Positions 17,671 to 58,465 of a stretch of DNA of 64,000 nucleotides are shown piece by piece. Source of the DNA: Nitrospirota bacterium (GTDB lineage Bacteria > Nitrospirota > Nitrospiria > Nitrospirales > UBA8639); assembly GCA_027623995.1 (NCBI GenBank), contig JAQBUF010000004.1:18551-82550 (forward strand), written 5' to 3'. A program made the position numbers and the translations under genes. The notes below the pieces were generated by a model, which was not told where the DNA came from, ran no database searches, and saw nothing but the letters and a program-made list of their open reading frames with translations. Position 1 is the stretch's first letter. Each line of letters opens with the position of its first letter.

Positions 17671-20600
17671 ATGTCTGACACTCATAAAAATCGCCCCGCA
17701 AATCGCCTCATTCACGAAACCAGTCCTTACTTGCTGCAACATGCCTACAATCCCGTTGATTGGTATCCTTGGGGCGAAGAAGCGCTCACGCGAGCACAAA
17801 CCGAAGGCAAACCCATCCTGCTTTCCATCGGGTATTCTGCCTGCCATTGGTGTCACGTCATGGAGCGAGAATCGTTTGAGAATGACGAAATCGCCACATT
17901 GATGAATCAAGACTATGTCTGCGTGAAAGTGGATCGAGAAGAACGCCCTGACCTCGACGAAATTTATATGCAAGCCACCCTGGCCATGAACCAAGGAAAC
18001 GGTGGGTGGCCCATGACCGTTTTTTTAACCCCGGATCAACAACCGATCTTTGCAGGTACCTATTTCCCACCGACGGATAAATGGGGACGCCCAGGCTTTG
18101 GTACGGTCTTGAAAAAAATCGCAGAAGGTTGGCACAAAGACCGCGCGGAAATTGTTGAAACCGCCACTCGGTTTACCACGCGATTGCAGAAATCCATTCA
18201 AGTCCCCTCGCCCACTACCGTAGGACAAGCAGAGCTGGATGCTGGAACAGAGCAATTCGCCAAAAATTTTGATCCGGTCTTTGGGGGATTTGGGCAAGCG
18301 CCAAAATTTCCACCTGCCACTGGCCTTTCATTTCTTCTTCAACATTATCGTCAAACCGGACATGACCATACCTTACACATGGTGCGCAAAACCCTTGATG
18401 CCATGGCTGCCGGTGGCATGTATGACCACATGGCGGGAGGATTTTCACGCTATTCTACCGATGAGCGTTGGCTAGTCCCGCATTTTGAAAAAATGCTGTA
18501 TGACAATTCACTGCTGGCCAAAACCTATGTCGAAGCCTATCAGGTCACCCAAGACGCCAATTACCACCGAGTGGCCACGGAGATCCTCGATTACATCATT
18601 CGAGAAATGACTTCTCCTGAAGGTGGATTCTACTCAGCCACCGATGCCGACTCTGAAGGCGTGGAAGGCAAGTTCTTTGTTTGGGATCCAGAGCAAATTC
18701 AATCGATGGCTTCATCTGCTGAAGACGCCACACGCTTTTGCGCCTATTACGACATCACGGACGATGGCAATTGGGAACATCATAGCATCCCCAATACCCC
18801 TCGCTCTCTTGATGCCGTGGCTCAAGAATTGGGTTGTTCTCCGGAGGAACTCCAGCAGACTATTGACCGGGTACGTCCCGTTGTTTACGAGGCTCGACTG
18901 AAACGCATCCCTCCAGGTCTCGATGACAAAATCATCACCGCCTGGAATGGCATGATGATCAGCGCCATGGCCGAAGCCGCTCGTGTCTTTGGCCAAGCCC
19001 AATACTTGAATGCAGCCACCAAGGCTGCCGATTTCCTTCTTCGAACTCTTTCAAGACCAAATGGTGGACTGTATCGAACGTGCCGAGAGAACAAAGCCCA
19101 CTTAGATGCCTACCTTGAAGATTATGCCTTTCTCATCGAAGCCCTCATTGATGTCTACGAAGCAGGGGGGAGCGAAAAATATTTAGCCGAAGCCGTCCGA
19201 CTGGCTGAACGGCTGCTCCAAGATTTTTCCGATCAGGAACATGGCGGATTTTTCACGACCGCGAAGGATCATGAAACCCTTATCCTTCGAAGTCGTGAAG
19301 GCCCCGATGGTGCCACACCCAGCGGAAATGCCGTGGCCGCCATGGCTTTGGCTCGGCTTTCGTTTCACTTTGGACGAGAAGATTTTCGTGACGCCGCAAC
19401 GCAAGCCATTCGAGCCTATGGCCAACAGATCGCTCAAATCCCACGTGGCTTTCCGAAGACGTTAATTGCCTCGGACCTACTTCTCAAAGGCCCTGTTGAA
19501 TTAGCTTTGGTAGGCACCGCAGGGGAATCTGGTTTGGAAGCTCTGTCCAAAGAACTTCGGCGCCATTTCGTACCGAATCGCGTCATCGCTCATCTTGATC
19601 CCAATCAATCCAAGTCCACACACCCACTACTGAAAGACAAAACCCTTGTGCAGGGCAAGCCAGCACTCTATATCTGCCGAAACTTCGCCTGTGCAGCACC
19701 GATTACCGACCCGAAGCTGATCGAGCAAGCCTTGGCCAATCATCTAAATCCTTCTTCCAATTCGCCCGAAGCCCAAACTACCAGGCTCAAAGCCTCCGGA
19801 CTCCCAGGGAAAGCGACACCGCAGGGAACCGGAGCCTATGTCTCACGCATCTTATCCAGCGCATTGGCCATACGACCATCAGCCACTGGCTATACACCTT
19901 TGGGATCAACAGGCCTCACCACGTCTCGACTTGGGTTTGGAGGCTACCGCATCACCGAAGGGCAAGATGAACACCGAGAAGCCCTACGTAAAGCCCTTCG
20001 TGAAGGATGCAATCTCATCGACACTTCAACGAACTATACCGATGGAAGCAGCGAGCGATTAATTGGTGGTGTGCTGAAAGAATTCATTGCCAAACAAGAA
20101 ATCACACGGGAAGAAACAATTGTGGTCTCGAAGATCGGCTACGTACAAGGCCAGAATCTCACTCGGGCCGAAGCCAAGGAACAAGCAGGGCAGGCCTATC
20201 CAGACATGGTGAAATATGGCGAGGGCATATGGCATTGTCTCCACCCTGAATTTCTTGAAGATCAACTCACTCTTTCCCTCGATCGCCTCGGACTAGAAAC
20301 GCTCGACATATGTTTACTTCACAACCCAGAGTACTTTCTTTCCGACGCCAAAAATCGAAAACTAACTGTTGATGAAAAAAAACTCCACGAATTGAGGCGC
20401 GAATTCTATCGTCGCCTGCAACAAGCTTTCAGGTGTTTTGAAGAACAGGTGACGGCCGGACGGCTTCAATACTATGGCGTCTCGTCCAACACCTCAACGG
20501 CATCTCCAGATGACCCAGAAGCCACCTCACTCTCTCGAATGCTTGAATGTGCACAAGCCGCGGCCCAAGATCTTGGGAAAGCCTCGCATGCGTTTCGAGT

Positions 20601-21372
20601 CTTGCAACTCCCCATGAACTTATTTGAATCAGGGGCGTTGCTCACTCCCAACACTGACAGTGAAGGGACACAGACTGTGTTGGAATTTTCTCAGCAAGAA
20701 CAGATTGCAATATTGGTGAATCGGCCACTCAACGCGATTCCCTCCAAGCATCGCGGCATGATTCGGTTGGCCGATCCACACACCGAACCAGTTGAATCCA
20801 CCTTTGAGGAACAACATGACCTGCTCGCCACCTTGGAAGAGGAATTTCGGAAAGACTTTGTCCCGCATATTCCCTACTCCGGCAAGGGTCTCGAACCAAA
20901 AGACTTTTTTTCGTTCACGGAAGAACTCAAAAGCCTTCGCCCTCGACTCCAGGGGCTTGAACACTGGGATCAAATTGAATCACAGATGATTGCGCCACAC
21001 GTGAATCAAGCACTCCAAGTCGTCACCAAACACCTTGGTGAGGATCACGCCAACGCATGGAAGAATTGGCAAAACCGCTACATTCCTAAACTCGTGACGT
21101 TGTTTCTCGTGTTGCGAAAAGAATCCGCTCAAAAAAACATCGAGGCTATTACCGCAATATCCGGACTCATCGATCCCCTTATCCCAGAAGACCAACGCTC
21201 CGAAACGATTTCCCGCAAAGCCCTCTGGACACTCACCAGCACTCCAGGTGTCACTTGTGTGCTTAATGGCATGCGAACAACCCACTATGTAGATGATGCA
21301 CTAAAAGTCTTGACCTGGGCCCCTCATCCCACGCCTCGAGACATATATGAAATAATCCAACATCCTCAGTAA
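17671..21372 (+). CDS. DUF255/YyaL-type thioredoxin-domain protein fused to a C-terminal aldo/keto reductase
   Basis: N-terminus [34 protein letters not shown]-terminus [21 protein letters not shown]...[14 protein letters not shown]. Confidence 0.9.
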
Positions 21373-49547: not shown

Positions 49548-51173
49548 ATGAGCAAAATAACTAAATCACGGCAATTTAAGAATCTCCTTCTATCGCAAGA
49601 ACTCGAATTCATTTGCGAAGCTCACAACGGCCTGAGCGCCAAGATTGTGGAGGAAGCTGGGTTTAAGGGGATTTGGGGAAGCGGCCTCACGATTTCTGCA
49701 CAATTTGGGGTTCGCGATAATAATGAAGCCAGCTGGACACAAGTGTTGGACAATCTCGAATTCATGTCCGATGCCACACAGATTCCTATCCTGCTCGACG
49801 GTGATACCGGCTATGGCAATTTCAACAACATGCAACGCCTTATTCGTAAACTCGAACAACGGCACATTGCCGCCGTCTGCATCGAAGACAAACTGTTCCC
49901 GAAGACCAACAGTTTTCTCAAAGGCGAAGCTCAACCCATGGCCGACATGGAGGAATTTTGTGGCAAGATCAAAGCGGGCAAAGATGCGCAAACCGATGAT
50001 GACTTTTGCATCATCGCTCGAGTGGAGGCTTTTATTTGTGGATGGGGTCTGACCGAGGCATTACGTCGCGCCGAGGCCTATCATCAAGCGGGGGCTGATG
50101 GCATTTTGATCCATAGCGCACTCGCCGTCCCTGATGAAATCCTCGCCTTCAAACAAGAATGGGGCGATCGCTGCCCGGTGGTCATCGTTCCGACGAAATA
50201 TTACTCCACACCGACAGAGGTGTTTCGGCAATCAGGTATTTCCCTGGTCATCTGGGCCAATCATCTCCTCCGCTCCGCAGTTACCACCATGCAAAAGACT
50301 GCTCAGACATTGAAGGCGCAGGAACATCTTCTTTCCATTGAAGACCGTATTGCCCCAGTATCTGAAATATTTCGTCTTCAAGGTGCCGCGGAACTCCAAG
50401 ATGCGGAAAAACGCTACCTCCCGCAAAATGCAGAAAACATGGCCGCCATTGTCTTGGCCGCCTCTCGTGGGGACGAACTGGGTGAGCTCACAGAAGACAA
50501 ACCTAAAACCATGATCCCCATTCAAGGCATGCCGATTCTCTCTCACATTATCGATGCCTATAATGCCGTAGGGATTAAAAACATTACGGTTGTTCGAGGC
50601 TACCTAAAAGAGGCCGTAGCCCTCCCCAATCTCACCTATGTGGATAATGATGACTATGCCACAACAGGAGAATTAGACTCTCTCCTCAAAGCCCTTCGTT
50701 CGAAAAAAGGCACCTTTCAGGACACGATCATTTCTTATGGCGATGTCTTATTCAATCAATACATTCCGCAAACGCTTTTTCAGGAACACGAAGACTTGGT
50801 GATGTTCGTCGATAGCTCATGGGGCGGGAAGACCAGCTATACTCGCCTCGGCGGGTTCGCAGAGTGCACGGAACCGAACTCCCGAAAAGTTTTCCACTCT
50901 AAAGTTTACCTCAAGCAATTGGGGAAGGACGTGCCTGAAACCTCTATCCATGGCGTGTGGATGGGCTTTCTCAAAGTGTCAGCCAAAGGGGCAGAGCAAC
51001 TGCAAGATATCTTAGAAAGCATGCTGGCTGATCCAGCTCAACGCAAGGCTGGCATGTCACAATTGTTTCAAGAATTGCTTCGACAAAACTATTCTATTCG
51101 AGTGCTTTATACCGTGGGACATTGGCTGGATATTAATAGTCTCGATGATCTTCTCCAAGCCGGAGAGTTTTAA
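49548..51173 (+). CDS. pepM: phosphoenolpyruvate mutase fused to C-terminal nucleotidyltransferase
   Basis: [13 protein letters not shown] and [11 protein letters not shown] motifs; C-terminal [33 protein letters not shown]. Confidence 0.92.
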
Positions 51174-51243
51174 CTCTCTGAACATTTGAAATGTTTACAC
51201 GCCATGGCATCAACCATTTCATCTTTCAAACTTGAAATCCACC

Positions 51244-52371
51244 ATGCTTGACCCCGAACAGTTTTTTGCCTGCCTGCAACAGCATGATGTGTCGTTTTTC
51301 ACGGGAGTGCCTGACTCACTGCTGAAAGACTTTTGTGCCTGTGTCACGCAGAAATCGCCAAGGCAGCAACATATCATCGCCGCCAACGAAGGTGGAGCCG
51401 TGGCGCTGGCCGTAGGATACCATCTTGCCACCGGGAAAATTCCTCTTGTGTATCTCCAAAACTCCGGGATAGGAAACATCATTAACCCTCTCCTTTCTTT
51501 AGCCGACCCGGACGTGTATGCCATTCCCATGTTATTGATTATTGGATGGCGAGGAGAACCCGGTGTGCATGATGAGCCGCAACATATAAAACAAGGACGC
51601 GTCATGCTGGGCATGCTGGAGTCGATGGAAATTCCCTATGCCATAGTCAGCCAGGAAATGGATCAGGCCGAGGAAGCCATCAAACAGGCTCTCCATACTG
51701 CTCAAGAAACCAATGGCCCCTATGCCTTGATCATTCGCAAGGGAACATTTGGTCCGTTTCAACTTCAATCGTCCAATTCCCCATCACTGGCATTAACCCG
51801 GGAAGACGCCATCCAGCATATTCTTGATGGACTCGAAAATGACGATGTCGTCGTCTCCACGACTGGCATGCCTTCACGGGAAGTCTTTGAATCTCGGGCT
51901 CAGAAACACCAGGGGCATCAACGAGACTTCCTGACTGTGGGGGGGATGGGTCATGCCTCACAAATTGCCTTGGGCATTGCCCTTCAAAAGCCTGACCGGC
52001 AGGTGTTTTGTATCGATGGCGACGGTGCGGCTCTCATGCATTTAGGCGCAATGGCCATTAATGGGTCTCTTAAGCCTTCTAACCTGAAGCATATTATCCT
52101 GAACAATGGAGCGCATGATTCAGTTGGGGGACAACCGACAGTTGGATTTCAGGTAGACTTTTTATCTATGGCCAAGGCAGCAGGCTATCAAACCGCGGCT
52201 CAAGTCAAGAACGCAGATGGGATTAAATCTGAACTTGTTACCATTCGACAGTCCACAGGGCCAAGCCTTCTTGAAATTCTTGTCAAAAAAGGCGCAAGGA
52301 AAGATTTAGGCAGACCCACATTAACTCCGGTTCAAAACAAACAGGGATTGATGAAGTTTCTTTCCGAATAG
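51244..52371 (+). CDS. ppd: phosphonopyruvate decarboxylase (ThDP-dependent)
   Basis: FFTGVPDSLLKDFCACV, AANEGGAVALAVGYHLATG, CIDGDGAALMHLGAM. Confidence 0.92.
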   Translation: MLDPEQFFACLQQHDVSFFTGVPDSLLKDFCACVTQKSPRQQHIIAANEGGAVALAVGYHLATGKIPLVYLQNSGIGNIINPLLSLADPDVYAIPMLLIIGWRGEPGVHDEPQHIKQGRVMLGMLESMEIPYAIVSQEMDQAEEAIKQALHTAQETNGPYALIIRKGTFGPFQLQSSNSPSLALTREDAIQHILDGLENDDVVVSTTGMPSREVFESRAQKHQGHQRDFLTVGGMGHASQIALGIALQKPDRQVFCIDGDGAALMHLGAMAINGSLKPSNLKHIILNNGAHDSVGGQPTVGFQVDFLSMAKAAGYQTAAQVKNADGIKSELVTIRQSTGPSLLEILVKKGARKDLGRPTLTPVQNKQGLMKFLSE

Positions 52372-52409
52372 AAAACTAAAAAGGAACACCCTTCTCGAAA
52401 CCATCCATC

Positions 52410-53252
52410 ATGAAAACCATCAAAGCCTATAACGGCGTTCCCATCCCTAGCTTTATGTATGGCACAGCCTGGAAGAAAGATGCGACGGCGGATCTTGTTC
52501 AGCTGGCCATTTCCTCAGGCTTTACGGCCATCGATACAGCCAATCAACTGATCCATTACAACGAAGCCCTGGTGGGTGAGGCGCTACTCACCCTTGCCCA
52601 GCAAGGCACCACGCGAGAATCCTTATTCCTTCAAACCAAATTCACACCCGTATCTGGGCAAGACCATCGCACCCCCTATGATCCTATTTCACCCATTACC
52701 CAACAGGTCCAACAATCATTTGAAAGCTCCTTGCAACATTTACATGCCGAGTACATTGACTCATATGTATTACACGGACCGTATTCACGACATGGGCTAG
52801 GCAAAGAAGACTGGGAAGTGTGGACAGCAATGGAGGGAATTTATCAATCAGGCAAAACTAAAATGATTGGTATCAGTAATGTCACTGCGGAACAACTCCG
52901 TCTGCTTTGTTTTAATGCCGAGGTCAAACCCATGGTGGTTCAAAACCGGTGTTATGCGGTATTGGGATGGGATCAAGAAGTGCGAGAAATCTGCAAAGGG
53001 CACGACATCATCTATCAAGGCTTCTCGCTGTTAACAGCCAATCGAGATGTATTGAGAAACCCCGCCATCCAGGCCATCGCCCAACAACGAAAAGTGGGAA
53101 CAGCTCAAGTCATCTTTCGCTTTGCACAACAGATAGGGATGGTCCCTTTAACCGGGACCACCAACGCACAGCACATGAAGGAAGATTTGCAGATTGAAGG
53201 GATTGAACTCACCAACGAAGAAGTTCTACGCATTGAAACAATAGAACTATGA
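52410..53252 (+). CDS. aldo/keto reductase
   Basis: GFTAIDTANQ, LQTKF, YVLHGP, GISNVT. Confidence 0.88.
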   Translation: MKTIKAYNGVPIPSFMYGTAWKKDATADLVQLAISSGFTAIDTANQLIHYNEALVGEALLTLAQQGTTRESLFLQTKFTPVSGQDHRTPYDPISPITQQVQQSFESSLQHLHAEYIDSYVLHGPYSRHGLGKEDWEVWTAMEGIYQSGKTKMIGISNVTAEQLRLLCFNAEVKPMVVQNRCYAVLGWDQEVREICKGHDIIYQGFSLLTANRDVLRNPAIQAIAQQRKVGTAQVIFRFAQQIGMVPLTGTTNAQHMKEDLQIEGIELTNEEVLRIETIEL

Positions 53253-54012: not shown

Positions 54013-54402
54013 ATGAGGGTCATCTTTAACAATTCCATCATGAAGATCACATACGGCCCTCTGATCATAGCCCTAGCACTCATCCTGTCCTATGCCTCAG
54101 CCCTTGGCCAAAACAAACCACCGATCATGTTGGCAGAGATTTATGAACATGGTCTCGATGTCACCCAATATTGGGTGAGTGAAAAACTCGATGGCGTTCG
54201 GGCACGATGGGATGGGACTCACCTGGTCTCCCGAGGCGGGCATATTTTTGCCACCCCAGATTGGTTTATCCAAGGCCTCCCCACTACCCCCATGGATGGA
54301 GAATTGTGGACCGGAAGGGGACGCTATGAAGAAGTGTCGTCAATTGTCAGAATACAACAGCCTCATGACGGATGGCGGTCCGTCCGCTTTTTGATCTTTG
54401 AC
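54013..54402 (+). pseudogene. 3'-truncated secreted ATP-dependent DNA-ligase-like gene
   Basis: Signal-like N-terminus then YWVSEKLDGVRARWDGTHLVSRGG ligase motif I; coding sequence ends at IS terminal repeat. Confidence 0.75.
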
Positions 54403-55515
54403 CCGTGCTTATCTGGTTGTCACACCCATCCACTAGGGGTAGTATGCTGAGCATCTGTGCCAATCAGGAGCGCTCATGGTTATCGACGTGCTTGATCGAG
54501 ACGACCTGCCTTTCCCTCACTCGCTTCCGGAGTTTCAGCGCCTGTTTCCCGACGAAGCGGCGTGCGCGGCCTATCTTGAGCGTGCTCGATGGAGAGAAGG
54601 ATTTATCTGTCCGCACTGCGCGGTGGCTGATGAACCACGGTACATTTCTACGCGCCGTTCGGTACTTCGATGCCGTCATTGTCGGTGCGATACCAGCCTC
54701 ACGGCGGGCACCGTCATGGAACGCACCCACACGCCGCTTTCGGTCTGGTTCTGGGCTGCGTACCTGGTTGCCAGCCAGACGCCGGGAATGTCTGCTGTCC
54801 AGTTTCAGCGCCAGCTTGGGCTGTCGCGTTACGAAACCGCTTTCCAGATACTCCACAAGCTGCGCGCTGGCATGGTGCGTCCCGACCAAGACAGAATCGG
54901 CGGCAAGCCGGAAATCATTGTTGAAGCCGATGAAACCTGGATCGGCGGCCGCACGCGTGGCAAAGGGCGTGGCGTCCACGACATGGTGCTCGTGGCCTGT
55001 GCCGTCGAAGTCCTGCAGCGCAAGCGCACAAGCAGCCTCAATAAGCGGAAGAACGGGCGTTACGCCGGGCGCGTCCGCCTCTCCGTGGTACCAGACCGGA
55101 GCGCAAAGTCGCTGGTCGGTTTCATCGAAAGCGCCGTGGCGCCGGGCGCAACCATTATGACCGACGATTGGAGCAGCTATGCAACGCTCGGGAAACGCGG
55201 ATACCTTCATACCGCCGTCGCAGAGCGAGGCGACATGGAAGTCGCAGAAACCTTTTTGCCCATCATTCACCTCGTGTTCTCAAATCTCAAGACCTGGCTG
55301 CGAGGCATCCATCACGGCGTCAGCCCTCAACACCTGCAAGCCTATCTCGACGAATTCACCTTCCGTTTCAATCGGCGCTTCTACCCATTCAATGCATTCC
55401 GATCCTTGCTCGGCATCGCTGGTGATGTCACTGCCAAGACCTATGCCGAGCTTTACTCCGAAAAATCAAGAGCCACTACATTTAGTAGGCGGGTGTGACA
55501 ACCGGATAAGCACGG
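54403..55515 (+). mobile_element. IS1595-type insertion sequence
   Basis: 25-bp TIRs CCGTGCTTATCYGGTTGTCACACCC (24/25) flanking one transposase ORF. Confidence 0.85.
54476..55498 (+). CDS. IS1595-family (ISXO2-like) transposase
   Basis: N-terminal CPHC...CRHC zinc-binding motif; VEADETWIGGRTRGKGRG catalytic region. Confidence 0.9.
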   Translation: MVIDVLDRDDLPFPHSLPEFQRLFPDEAACAAYLERARWREGFICPHCAVADEPRYISTRRSVLRCRHCRCDTSLTAGTVMERTHTPLSVWFWAAYLVASQTPGMSAVQFQRQLGLSRYETAFQILHKLRAGMVRPDQDRIGGKPEIIVEADETWIGGRTRGKGRGVHDMVLVACAVEVLQRKRTSSLNKRKNGRYAGRVRLSVVPDRSAKSLVGFIESAVAPGATIMTDDWSSYATLGKRGYLHTAVAERGDMEVAETFLPIIHLVFSNLKTWLRGIHHGVSPQHLQAYLDEFTFRFNRRFYPFNAFRSLLGIAGDVTAKTYAELYSEKSRATTFSRRV

Positions 55516-56657
55516 AATAATCCTTGGGCTCCAATGGAAGCAAACAACCCGGTGGCTAGAATTCCCGTAAAACCACCAACTCCGTGAATCCCAACGACAT
55601 CAAGTGAATCATCATACCCCAAACGTGTCTTCCAGATCACCGCAAGATAACAGACCACCCCTGCCACAAGTCCCACGAATAATGCAGAAAGTGGACCAAG
55701 AAATCCAGCGCCTGGCGTAATCGTCGCTAAACCAGAAATTACTCCGCTGGCAACCCCCAACACGGTGGGCTTCCCTTGATTCATCCACTCCGCAATCATC
55801 CAACTCACACCCCCAGCACAGGCGGCAATATGAGTGGCCACAAAGGCAGAGGCCGCGACCTCATTGGCTCCCAACGCACTTCCCGCGTTAAATCCAAACC
55901 ATCCGAACCATAAGAGGCCAGTGCCCAACACCGTCATCGGCAAATTATGTGGCGGCATGGGCTCACTCCCAAGTCCCTTTCGTTTCCCCACCAGAATAGC
56001 ACAGATCAAGGCACCAAATCCTGAACTAATATGAACGACTGCCCCTCCGGCAAAATCAAGAAATCCCATCTGAGCCATCCATCCGCCACCCCACACCCAA
56101 TGAGCGAGAGGCGAATATATAAAGGTGGACCAGAGAACGGCAAAAGCCAACACAGCGGTAAATTTCATGCGTTCAGCGAAAGTCCCAGTGATTAAGGCAA
56201 CCGTGATCGCCGCGAACATCATCTGGAAAACCATAAAGACCAGATGAGGAATCCCCGTCCCAGGAAAGGCTTCTGTGCCCACTCCCATCAATCCCAAATG
56301 ATCCAGCCCACCGATAACCCCACCAACGTCTGGGCCAAAGGCTAACGTATAGCCCCACAGCACCCAGACGATGCTAATAACACATAAAATAATCGCCGTA
56401 TGCATAATGGTGCCAAGCACATTTTTGCTTCGCACGAGTCACCCATAAAACAACGCCAAACCTGGGAGGGTCATACACAGGACAAGGGCCGAAGAAACAA
56501 GAATCCACGCAGTATCTCCAGAATCAATGGCATTTGAGGTCCCATCCTGGGCCCACACAGTCGAAATACTCAGGCTCCCTAGAACCACCATGAAGAGTAG
56601 CCAGAGTGCGCTCTGTTTGGCTCGTGTCACAAGATCACCTCGAGTTAAGATTATCAC
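55482..56657 (-). pseudogene. ammonium transporter paralog: in-frame TGA and 3' truncation by IS
   Basis: LALFYG*LVRSKNVLG in one frame; C-terminus ends GAQGLF then IS-derived RAYPVVTPAY. Confidence 0.85.
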
Positions 56658-56708
56658 CTAAAATTACCGGCCCTCCATATAAAAAAGGAGTAACAGAAGG
56701 ACATGAGG

Positions 56709-57098
<390 letters not shown>

Positions 57099-57151
57099 TT
57101 AGACATCGCAGATCCTTTGCTCCTCTCGTTAGAAAGCAGAACGATTCAATA

Positions 57152-58465
57152 TTATGCATACGCCCGTTCGTGGTGTTCGCTCAGGTCGAGGCCAAGGACT
57201 TCTTCTTCCTTGGTCACACGAAGCCCAATAGTCATATCAAGAATCTTTAATATGATAAACGTCCCCACAAAAGAAAATATCCAGGTTGCGCCCACGGCCA
57301 CGAATTGAGTCACGACTTGATTGGGATTCCCGAAAAATAACCCGGTGCCTCCACCAACGCTCGCAAACAACCCCGTAGCAATGGCACCCCAAGTCCCTCC
57401 AATACCATGGATCCCCAGCACATCAAGGGCATCGTCATATCCCAATTTACTCTTCCACATCACCGCAGCATAACATAAGAGGCCACCGCCCAACCCCACC
57501 CAAATCGCGGAAATGGGCCCGACGAAACCAGCGGCTGGCGTAATCGCGACCAATCCAGCCACGGCACCACTCGCTGCACCAAGAACCGTGGGCTTTCCTC
57601 GGTAAATCCGCTCGACAGCCACCCACCCAAGTGCACCTGCAGCGGTCGCGATATGCGTTGCAACGAATGCACTCGCCGCAATCCCATTAGCAGCCAACGC
57701 ACTCCCCGCATTAAATCCAAACCATCCAACCCAAAGGAGCGACGCCCCAACAATGGTAAAAGGAAGATTGTGTGGGGAAAGGTTTTCCGATCCATAACCA
57801 TGTCGCTTCCCAAGCACCAACGCAGCGGCTAATGCTGCCACACCAGAACTAATATGCACCACCGTGCCTCCAGCAAAATCCAGTGCCCCTAAACCTTGAA
57901 GCCACCCGCCACCCCAGACCCAGTGAGCCAATGGTGCATAAATGAACGTTGCCCACAGAACCGCAAACAGAACAAAGGCGCTAAACTTCATGCGTTCGGC
58001 AATCGCCCCGCTAATCAACGCAACGGTGATCACTGCAAACATCAATTGAAACACCATAAAGGCAAGTTGTGGAATGGCGGTTCCTGAAAAAGCATCAGTC
58101 CCAACCCCACTCAGCCCAAGGAATTCAAGGCTACCAATGATTCCACTGATGTCAGTTCCAAAGGCAAGGGAGTATCCCCACAGCACCCACACGATACTCA
58201 CAATACAAACAGAAATAAAACTATGCATCATGGTGCTGAGCACATTTTTATTCCGAACCATGCCGCCATAAAATAAGGCTAACCCAGGGATCGTCATCAG
58301 CAACACCAAGGCAGAGCAAGTTAACACCCATGCTGTATCCCCGGCACTAATCGGGGCCGCGCCACTGGAATCATCTGCAAAGGCAGTTACTCCAAAAACA
58401 CTAAGCACTATCACCAAAAATAAAATACTTATAACTTTACATAAGACTATCCTTTTTCCATTCAT
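57152..58465 (-). CDS. amt: ammonium transporter
   Basis: LFYGGMVRNKNVLSTMMHS, DFAGGTVVHISSG, full-length C-terminus. Confidence 0.96.
   Translation of the reverse strand: MNGKRIVLCKVISILFLVIVLSVFGVTAFADDSSGAAPISAGDTAWVLTCSALVLLMTIPGLALFYGGMVRNKNVLSTMMHSFISVCIVSIVWVLWGYSLAFGTDISGIIGSLEFLGLSGVGTDAFSGTAIPQLAFMVFQLMFAVITVALISGAIAERMKFSAFVLFAVLWATFIYAPLAHWVWGGGWLQGLGALDFAGGTVVHISSGVAALAAALVLGKRHGYGSENLSPHNLPFTIVGASLLWVGWFGFNAGSALAANGIAASAFVATHIATAAGALGWVAVERIYRGKPTVLGAASGAVAGLVAITPAAGFVGPISAIWVGLGGGLLCYAAVMWKSKLGYDDALDVLGIHGIGGTWGAIATGLFASVGGGTGLFFGNPNQVVTQFVAVGATWIFSFVGTFIILKILDMTIGLRVTKEEEVLGLDLSEHHERAYA

Follow-up and report, generated by a model that had tools for sequence, protein, structure and literature searches.

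The stretch of DNA analysed here (64,000 nucleotides, hereafter the window) belongs to contig C93 of a 3.13 Mb genome that is 99.7% complete and whose relatives are Nitrospirales. It carries three genes encoding a PEP mutase fused to a nucleotidyltransferase domain (PepM-NTP), a phosphonopyruvate decarboxylase (Ppd) and an aldo/keto reductase (AKR), and profile scores confirm these assignments, which had been made in an initial annotation of the sequence (Table 1). The gaps between the genes, 58 bp from PepM to Ppd and 38 bp from Ppd to AKR, are compatible with an operon of three genes.

Table 1. Features of the window and of the second locus on contig C31 (L094), where all six genes lie on one strand
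Feature	Position	Strand	Basis or remark
PepM-NTP fusion, 541 residues	49548..51173	+	TIGR02320, PF12804, 1m1b match, fold matches; type A of Nitrospirales
PepM part of the fusion	about residues 1-291
LicC/PntC-fold nucleotidyltransferase domain	about residues 298-541
PEP mutase diagnostic motif EDK(X)5NS, residues 113-123	49884..49916	+	30-row alignment
Nucleotide-binding loop of the fused domain	50451..50510	+	alignments: Glu in place of the Arg of GXG[T/S]R, Lys retained
Ppd, single-chain	51232..52371	+	TIGR03297; likely start 51244
AKR	52410..53252	+	PF00248
Ppd-alpha	C31 14036-14545
Ppd-beta	C31 12992-13582
Probable AEP transaminase (AEPT)	C31 11805-12878
PntC-like stand-alone cytidylyltransferase	C31 10912-11658
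495-residue protein, C-terminal CDP-alcohol phosphotransferase (CDPAP)	C31 9401-10888
HpnL/LPG-synthase-TM protein (HpnL-type flippase)	C31 8276-9268

The PepM part scores 387 bits against the PEP_mutase model TIGR02320 over residues 10-280, above the curated NCBIfam cut-off of 319.55, and its closest solved relative is the mussel PEP mutase 1m1b (425 bits); the PF12804 match follows at residues 300-414. The catalytic motif pointed out in the initial annotation is present, and this, together with the score, makes the protein a member of the PEP mutase family. E113, D114, K115, N121 and S122 of the motif are invariant in a 30-row alignment, as are D57, D84, D86, R158 and H189 (window PepM numbering), and we take these ten to be catalytic in PEP mutase. 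Ppd reaches 494.8 bits against TIGR03297 (cut-off 312.5) and has both ThDP domains, PF02775 and PF02776; an orthologue that is 80% identical adjoins pepM in the genus mate G059. The true start of the window Ppd is probably ATG 51244 rather than TTG 51232, because the relatives begin with ML[ND]P. Family membership thus supports the earlier proposal that PepM and Ppd would together produce phosphonoacetaldehyde. The third protein is a general member of PF00248 (110 bits), with no equivalog model above its cut-off in the profile search. Another aldo/keto reductase domain occurs at 17671-21372 of the window, in a 1233-residue protein that also has a DUF255/DsbH-type thioredoxin domain. Beside the phosphonate genes, two ammonium transporter genes flank a PII-like regulator on the minus strand (55482-58465).

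Copies of the fusion that match all 541 residues at 77-89% identity were found by a genome-contig scan at 80 other loci, nearly all labelled Nitrospira or Nitrospirales; thus, the union of the two domains is not a product of chance. Among those loci, Ppd is adjacent in some only and AKR in a subset only, while several have PepM followed by AKR without Ppd. Since both neighbours vary, the fixed element is the PepM-NTP fusion alone. Ppd was considered as an obligatory neighbour of PepM and rejected, as many loci of this form of the fusion, type A, have no adjacent Ppd and are accompanied by a split Ppd elsewhere. The closest relative of the window fusion (89%), which groups with it in the tree, lies on a contig labelled Nitrospinota (L004), probably through an error in the label or in the binning.

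The fusion occurs once in about 93% of 117 sampled Nitrospirales genomes: 76 carry type A, five an intermediate form (50-55% identical to the window fusion), 28 a second form named type B (34-38%, one with a shorter best match), eight none and not a single one two. The window fusion is the sole PEP mutase of its genome. Under independence, about 19 genomes would be expected to carry both types, and none does (Fisher p about 4e-20, uncorrected for shared ancestry, the phylogenetic non-independence of the genomes inflating such statistics). In the tree, which carries a long-branch warning, types A and B split with full support, and the fusions of the Burkholderia group and of Roseomonas fall on the A side.

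The initial annotation had remarked that the gene after Ppd is not the usual AEP transaminase or iron alcohol dehydrogenase. This holds for the immediate neighbourhood, yet a match to the AEP transaminase family was found on contig C31 of the same genome, and in nearly all other Nitrospirales genomes; a linked transaminase elsewhere was the very finding which that annotation had named as contradicting a route that bypasses amination. At the same place on C31 a whole-genome search for Ppd located a split Ppd-like pair, and such a pair, or in a few cases a single-chain Ppd, is present in nearly all of the 117 genomes. The C31 AEPT scores 354.2 bits against TIGR03301, just under the curated cut-off of 360.8, and its best solved matches are the Treponema denticola PntC-AEPT (6pd1) and the Salmonella PhnW (1m32). 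The CDPAP motif, D-x2-D-G-x2-A-R-x8-G-x3-D-x3-D, is intact.

What ties the C31 genes to the window is the behaviour of type B. In 16 of 21 loci, type B adjoins, in divergent orientation, the genes for Ppd-alpha, Ppd-beta, AEPT, PntC, CDPAP and HpnL, so that the C31 cluster is a type B cluster minus its PepM. Type A, whose gene lies at another place in the genome, takes the part of type B, and the C31 cluster is its unlinked partner. Furthermore, CDPAP is absent from four of the eight PepM-less genomes and from two of the 109 PepM-bearing ones (p 1e-4). It is because of this joint loss, the adjacency of type B to genes of the C31 kind and the fact that types A and B exclude each other that the C31 cluster is assigned to the window PepM, and nearly all Nitrospirales genomes with a PepM-NTP fusion also carry this AEP cluster.

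The same genes allow another reading, in which C31 would have no connection with the window and would serve a taurine-like sulfonate route, and the three phosphonate genes of the window would form a system of their own. A taurine-like route is possible from the profile scores, as the models for Ppd and for sulfopyruvate decarboxylase score about equally on the split subunits, all under cut-off. In addition, three well-assembled PepM-less genomes, G021 (L107), G066 (L106) and G096, keep the split Ppd and/or AEPT, with CDPAP absent. These two points, and the AEPT score under its cut-off, count against an AEP pathway. However, type B adjoins exactly the genes of C31, PntC and CDPAP need a phosph(on)ate, and CDPAP is lost along with PepM; hence, an unrelated sulfonate pathway appears unlikely.

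Type B itself departs from the known signature of the family. EDNV[Y/F]PKRCSF replaces EDK(X)5NS in all 21 sequences read (L103:10840-12519 and L154-L173), and the one tested, L103, scores 269 bits, below the PEP_mutase cut-off of 319.6. The genes around it, and the fact that it never shares a genome with type A, argue for a putative PEP mutase. Because the EDK(X)5NS motif was required by two surveys (PMC6697681 and PMC8931226), surveys of this kind would miss type B. A more ambitious reading joins these points: type B may function as a PEP mutase, its gating loop altered, and have been swapped with type A in a pathway that the two otherwise have in common; across the order, the product may be an AEP phosphonolipid linked to hopanoid membranes, which surveys that ask for the motif have missed. 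This is a tentative conjecture of rather low probability.

The initial annotation had further proposed that the fused domain activates the phosphonate in a CMP-type reaction. The fold agrees with this proposal: as the model of the full-length fusion is only fair (pLDDT 77.9), the domain was modelled alone (pLDDT 92), and its top fold matches are LicC (1jyk) and PntC-AEPT (6pd2). The catalytic residues do not agree to the same extent. PntC requires Arg15 and Lys25 of its GXG[T/S]R...PK consensus, alanine at either position leaving less than 10% of the activity (PMC6697681), whereas the fused domain keeps the Lys and has Glu in place of the Arg, which belongs to the pyrophosphate site. The altered sequence, SRGxEL, is nearly invariant in type A fused domains, and the same Arg is missing from the intermediate, Burkholderia-group and type B fusions. 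In contrast, stand-alone PntC genes retain it, and the one on C31 reads AAGVGRRL...PK, with R replacing T/S before the Arg. Judged from these residues, CMP-AEP is more likely made by the stand-alone PntC-like enzyme, leaving another role to the fused domain, which is perhaps structural, regulatory or of altered chemistry. With its Arg lost and a second, canonical gene present in the genome, the fused domain is a weaker candidate than first considered for the role of evident AEP-activating enzyme.

In the initial annotation, the AKR was the basis for a hydroxyethylphosphonate (HEP) branch, in which the enzyme would reduce phosphonoacetaldehyde to HEP, which the fused domain would activate with CTP for a HEP-decorated surface. 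The unrelated cytidylyltransferase of Fom1 carries out such an activation, and the branch might operate alongside the AEP route. The tight order PepM-Ppd-AKR in the window and in G059, and the PepM-AKR pair that most loci of genus g2 show, would suit this branch. So would the lack of any match to the iron alcohol dehydrogenase family (PF00465) in the source genome and three relatives, in a search where 12 of 14 controls matched; the Fe-ADH-type phosphonoacetaldehyde reductase by which HEP-forming pathways are recognized is thus not found in the source genome. However, the branch could not be upheld. Apart from the AEPT encoded elsewhere in the genome, the AKR is present in 109 of the 117 genomes (61-76% identity, one a fragment), including six without any PepM fusion (G001, G021, G069, G093, G096 and G100), is missing from several PepM-bearing genomes, and is mostly unlinked to pepM, which it adjoins in two genera only, its neighbourhoods elsewhere being variable. 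Moreover, in g2 it follows pepM without Ppd. In genus g4 (L123, L124), where the ancestral neighbour of the AKR is a DNA ligase gene, the AKR-ligase order is uninterrupted, and a ligase fragment also lies downstream in the window. There, at 54013-55498, the beginning of a gene for an ATP-dependent DNA ligase is followed directly by an IS1595-family transposase. The AKR probably belongs to the core gene set of the Nitrospirales, and a HEP product is improbable. Reduction of phosphonoacetaldehyde by the AKR, as a putative side reaction, is unsupported, and is demoted and not dismissed because no Fe-ADH was found in the source genome either.

The g2 loci suggest one more role, since PepM and AKR are adjacent there without Ppd: the AKR might reduce phosphonopyruvate to phosphonolactate, presumably a VlpB-like step, and so draw the PEP mutase reaction forward against its unfavourable equilibrium at loci that have no Ppd beside pepM. 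Yet all those g2 genomes have a split or single-chain Ppd elsewhere, mostly beside AEPT, and the AKR is distributed independently of PepM, which renders this role very improbable.

From the genes, their motifs, conservation and linkage, and from the absence of genomes with both PepM lineages, we infer the following reactions, product and acceptor. The window PepM-NTP would rearrange PEP to phosphonopyruvate, acting in trans to the AEP pathway. The single-chain Ppd next to it, the split Ppd-alpha/beta of C31, or both, would decarboxylate this intermediate, and the resulting phosphonoacetaldehyde would be converted into 2-aminoethylphosphonate (AEP) by the C31 transaminase. The PntC-like enzyme would then produce CMP-AEP, a logic established for PntC (PMC6697681), from which CDPAP would pass AEP to a lipid or a polyprenyl/hopanoid-type alcohol, and the product may be flipped by the HpnL-like protein. 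Further support comes from Mycetohabitans and Roseomonas, where a type-A-side fusion, Ppd, AEPT, PntC, CDPAP and an HpnL-like gene form one cluster. On balance, it is probable that the window PepM feeds an AEP phosphonolipid or phosphonoglycan pathway found across the Nitrospirales.

As to the acceptor, a hopanoid-related molecule is at most a reasonable guess, because the clusters outside the order are hopanoid-linked and because squalene-hopene cyclase is widespread among the relatives (in the source genome and 29 of 30 relatives). In Mycetohabitans (L147, with a 2OG-Fe(II) oxygenase) and on plasmids of Roseomonas (L148), the phosphonate set lies within or beside hopanoid gene clusters.

Nitrite oxidisers and comammox bacteria from soil, sea, sponges and wastewater are among the Nitrospirales, and if the proposed pathway is true, nitrifiers would supply C-P bonds constitutively. 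Type B also offers a means to check the EDK(X)5NS rule for undercounting of phosphonate producers. Literature searches found no specific report on Nitrospira with PEP mutase or a phosphonolipid; within the literature reached, the sole mention of pepM in Nitrospirota is in a lake metagenome paper (PMC10734540).

Among known systems, PepM is also fused to a cytidylyltransferase in the HEP routes of the Fom1/PhpC type. There, however, the nucleotidyltransferase is N-terminal and of family PF01467 (PMC6697681), unrelated to the domain fused here, and the Fe-ADH has no counterpart in the source genome. The terpene/hopanoid-linked PEP mutase clusters of Acetobacteraceae, for which an undiscovered terpene-phosphonate was proposed (PMC8776678), resemble the Roseomonas plasmid locus, where PepM-NTP, Ppd, AEPT, PntC, CDPAP and an HpnL-like gene stand beside squalene-hopene cyclase; the phosphonate genes of Nitrospirales, in contrast, lie outside the hopanoid cluster. 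The strongest likeness is to the phosphonyl tailoring (Pnt) pathway of Ppm, Ppd, AEPT and PntC (Rice et al. 2019, PMC6697681), in whose survey, which does not mention Nitrospira, a PF12804 domain is fused to 33% of the Ppm proteins. Both systems have a PepM-PF12804 fusion, Ppd, AEPT (probable in the source genome), a separate PntC-like gene and a surface transferase, but in the source genome pepM lies apart from the other genes, the pyrophosphate-site Arg is gone from the fused domain, and the transferase is a fused CDP-alcohol phosphotransferase instead of LicD. Thus, the proposed route follows the logic of the known Pnt pathway, and its distinctive traits are an order-wide distribution and a second PepM lineage.
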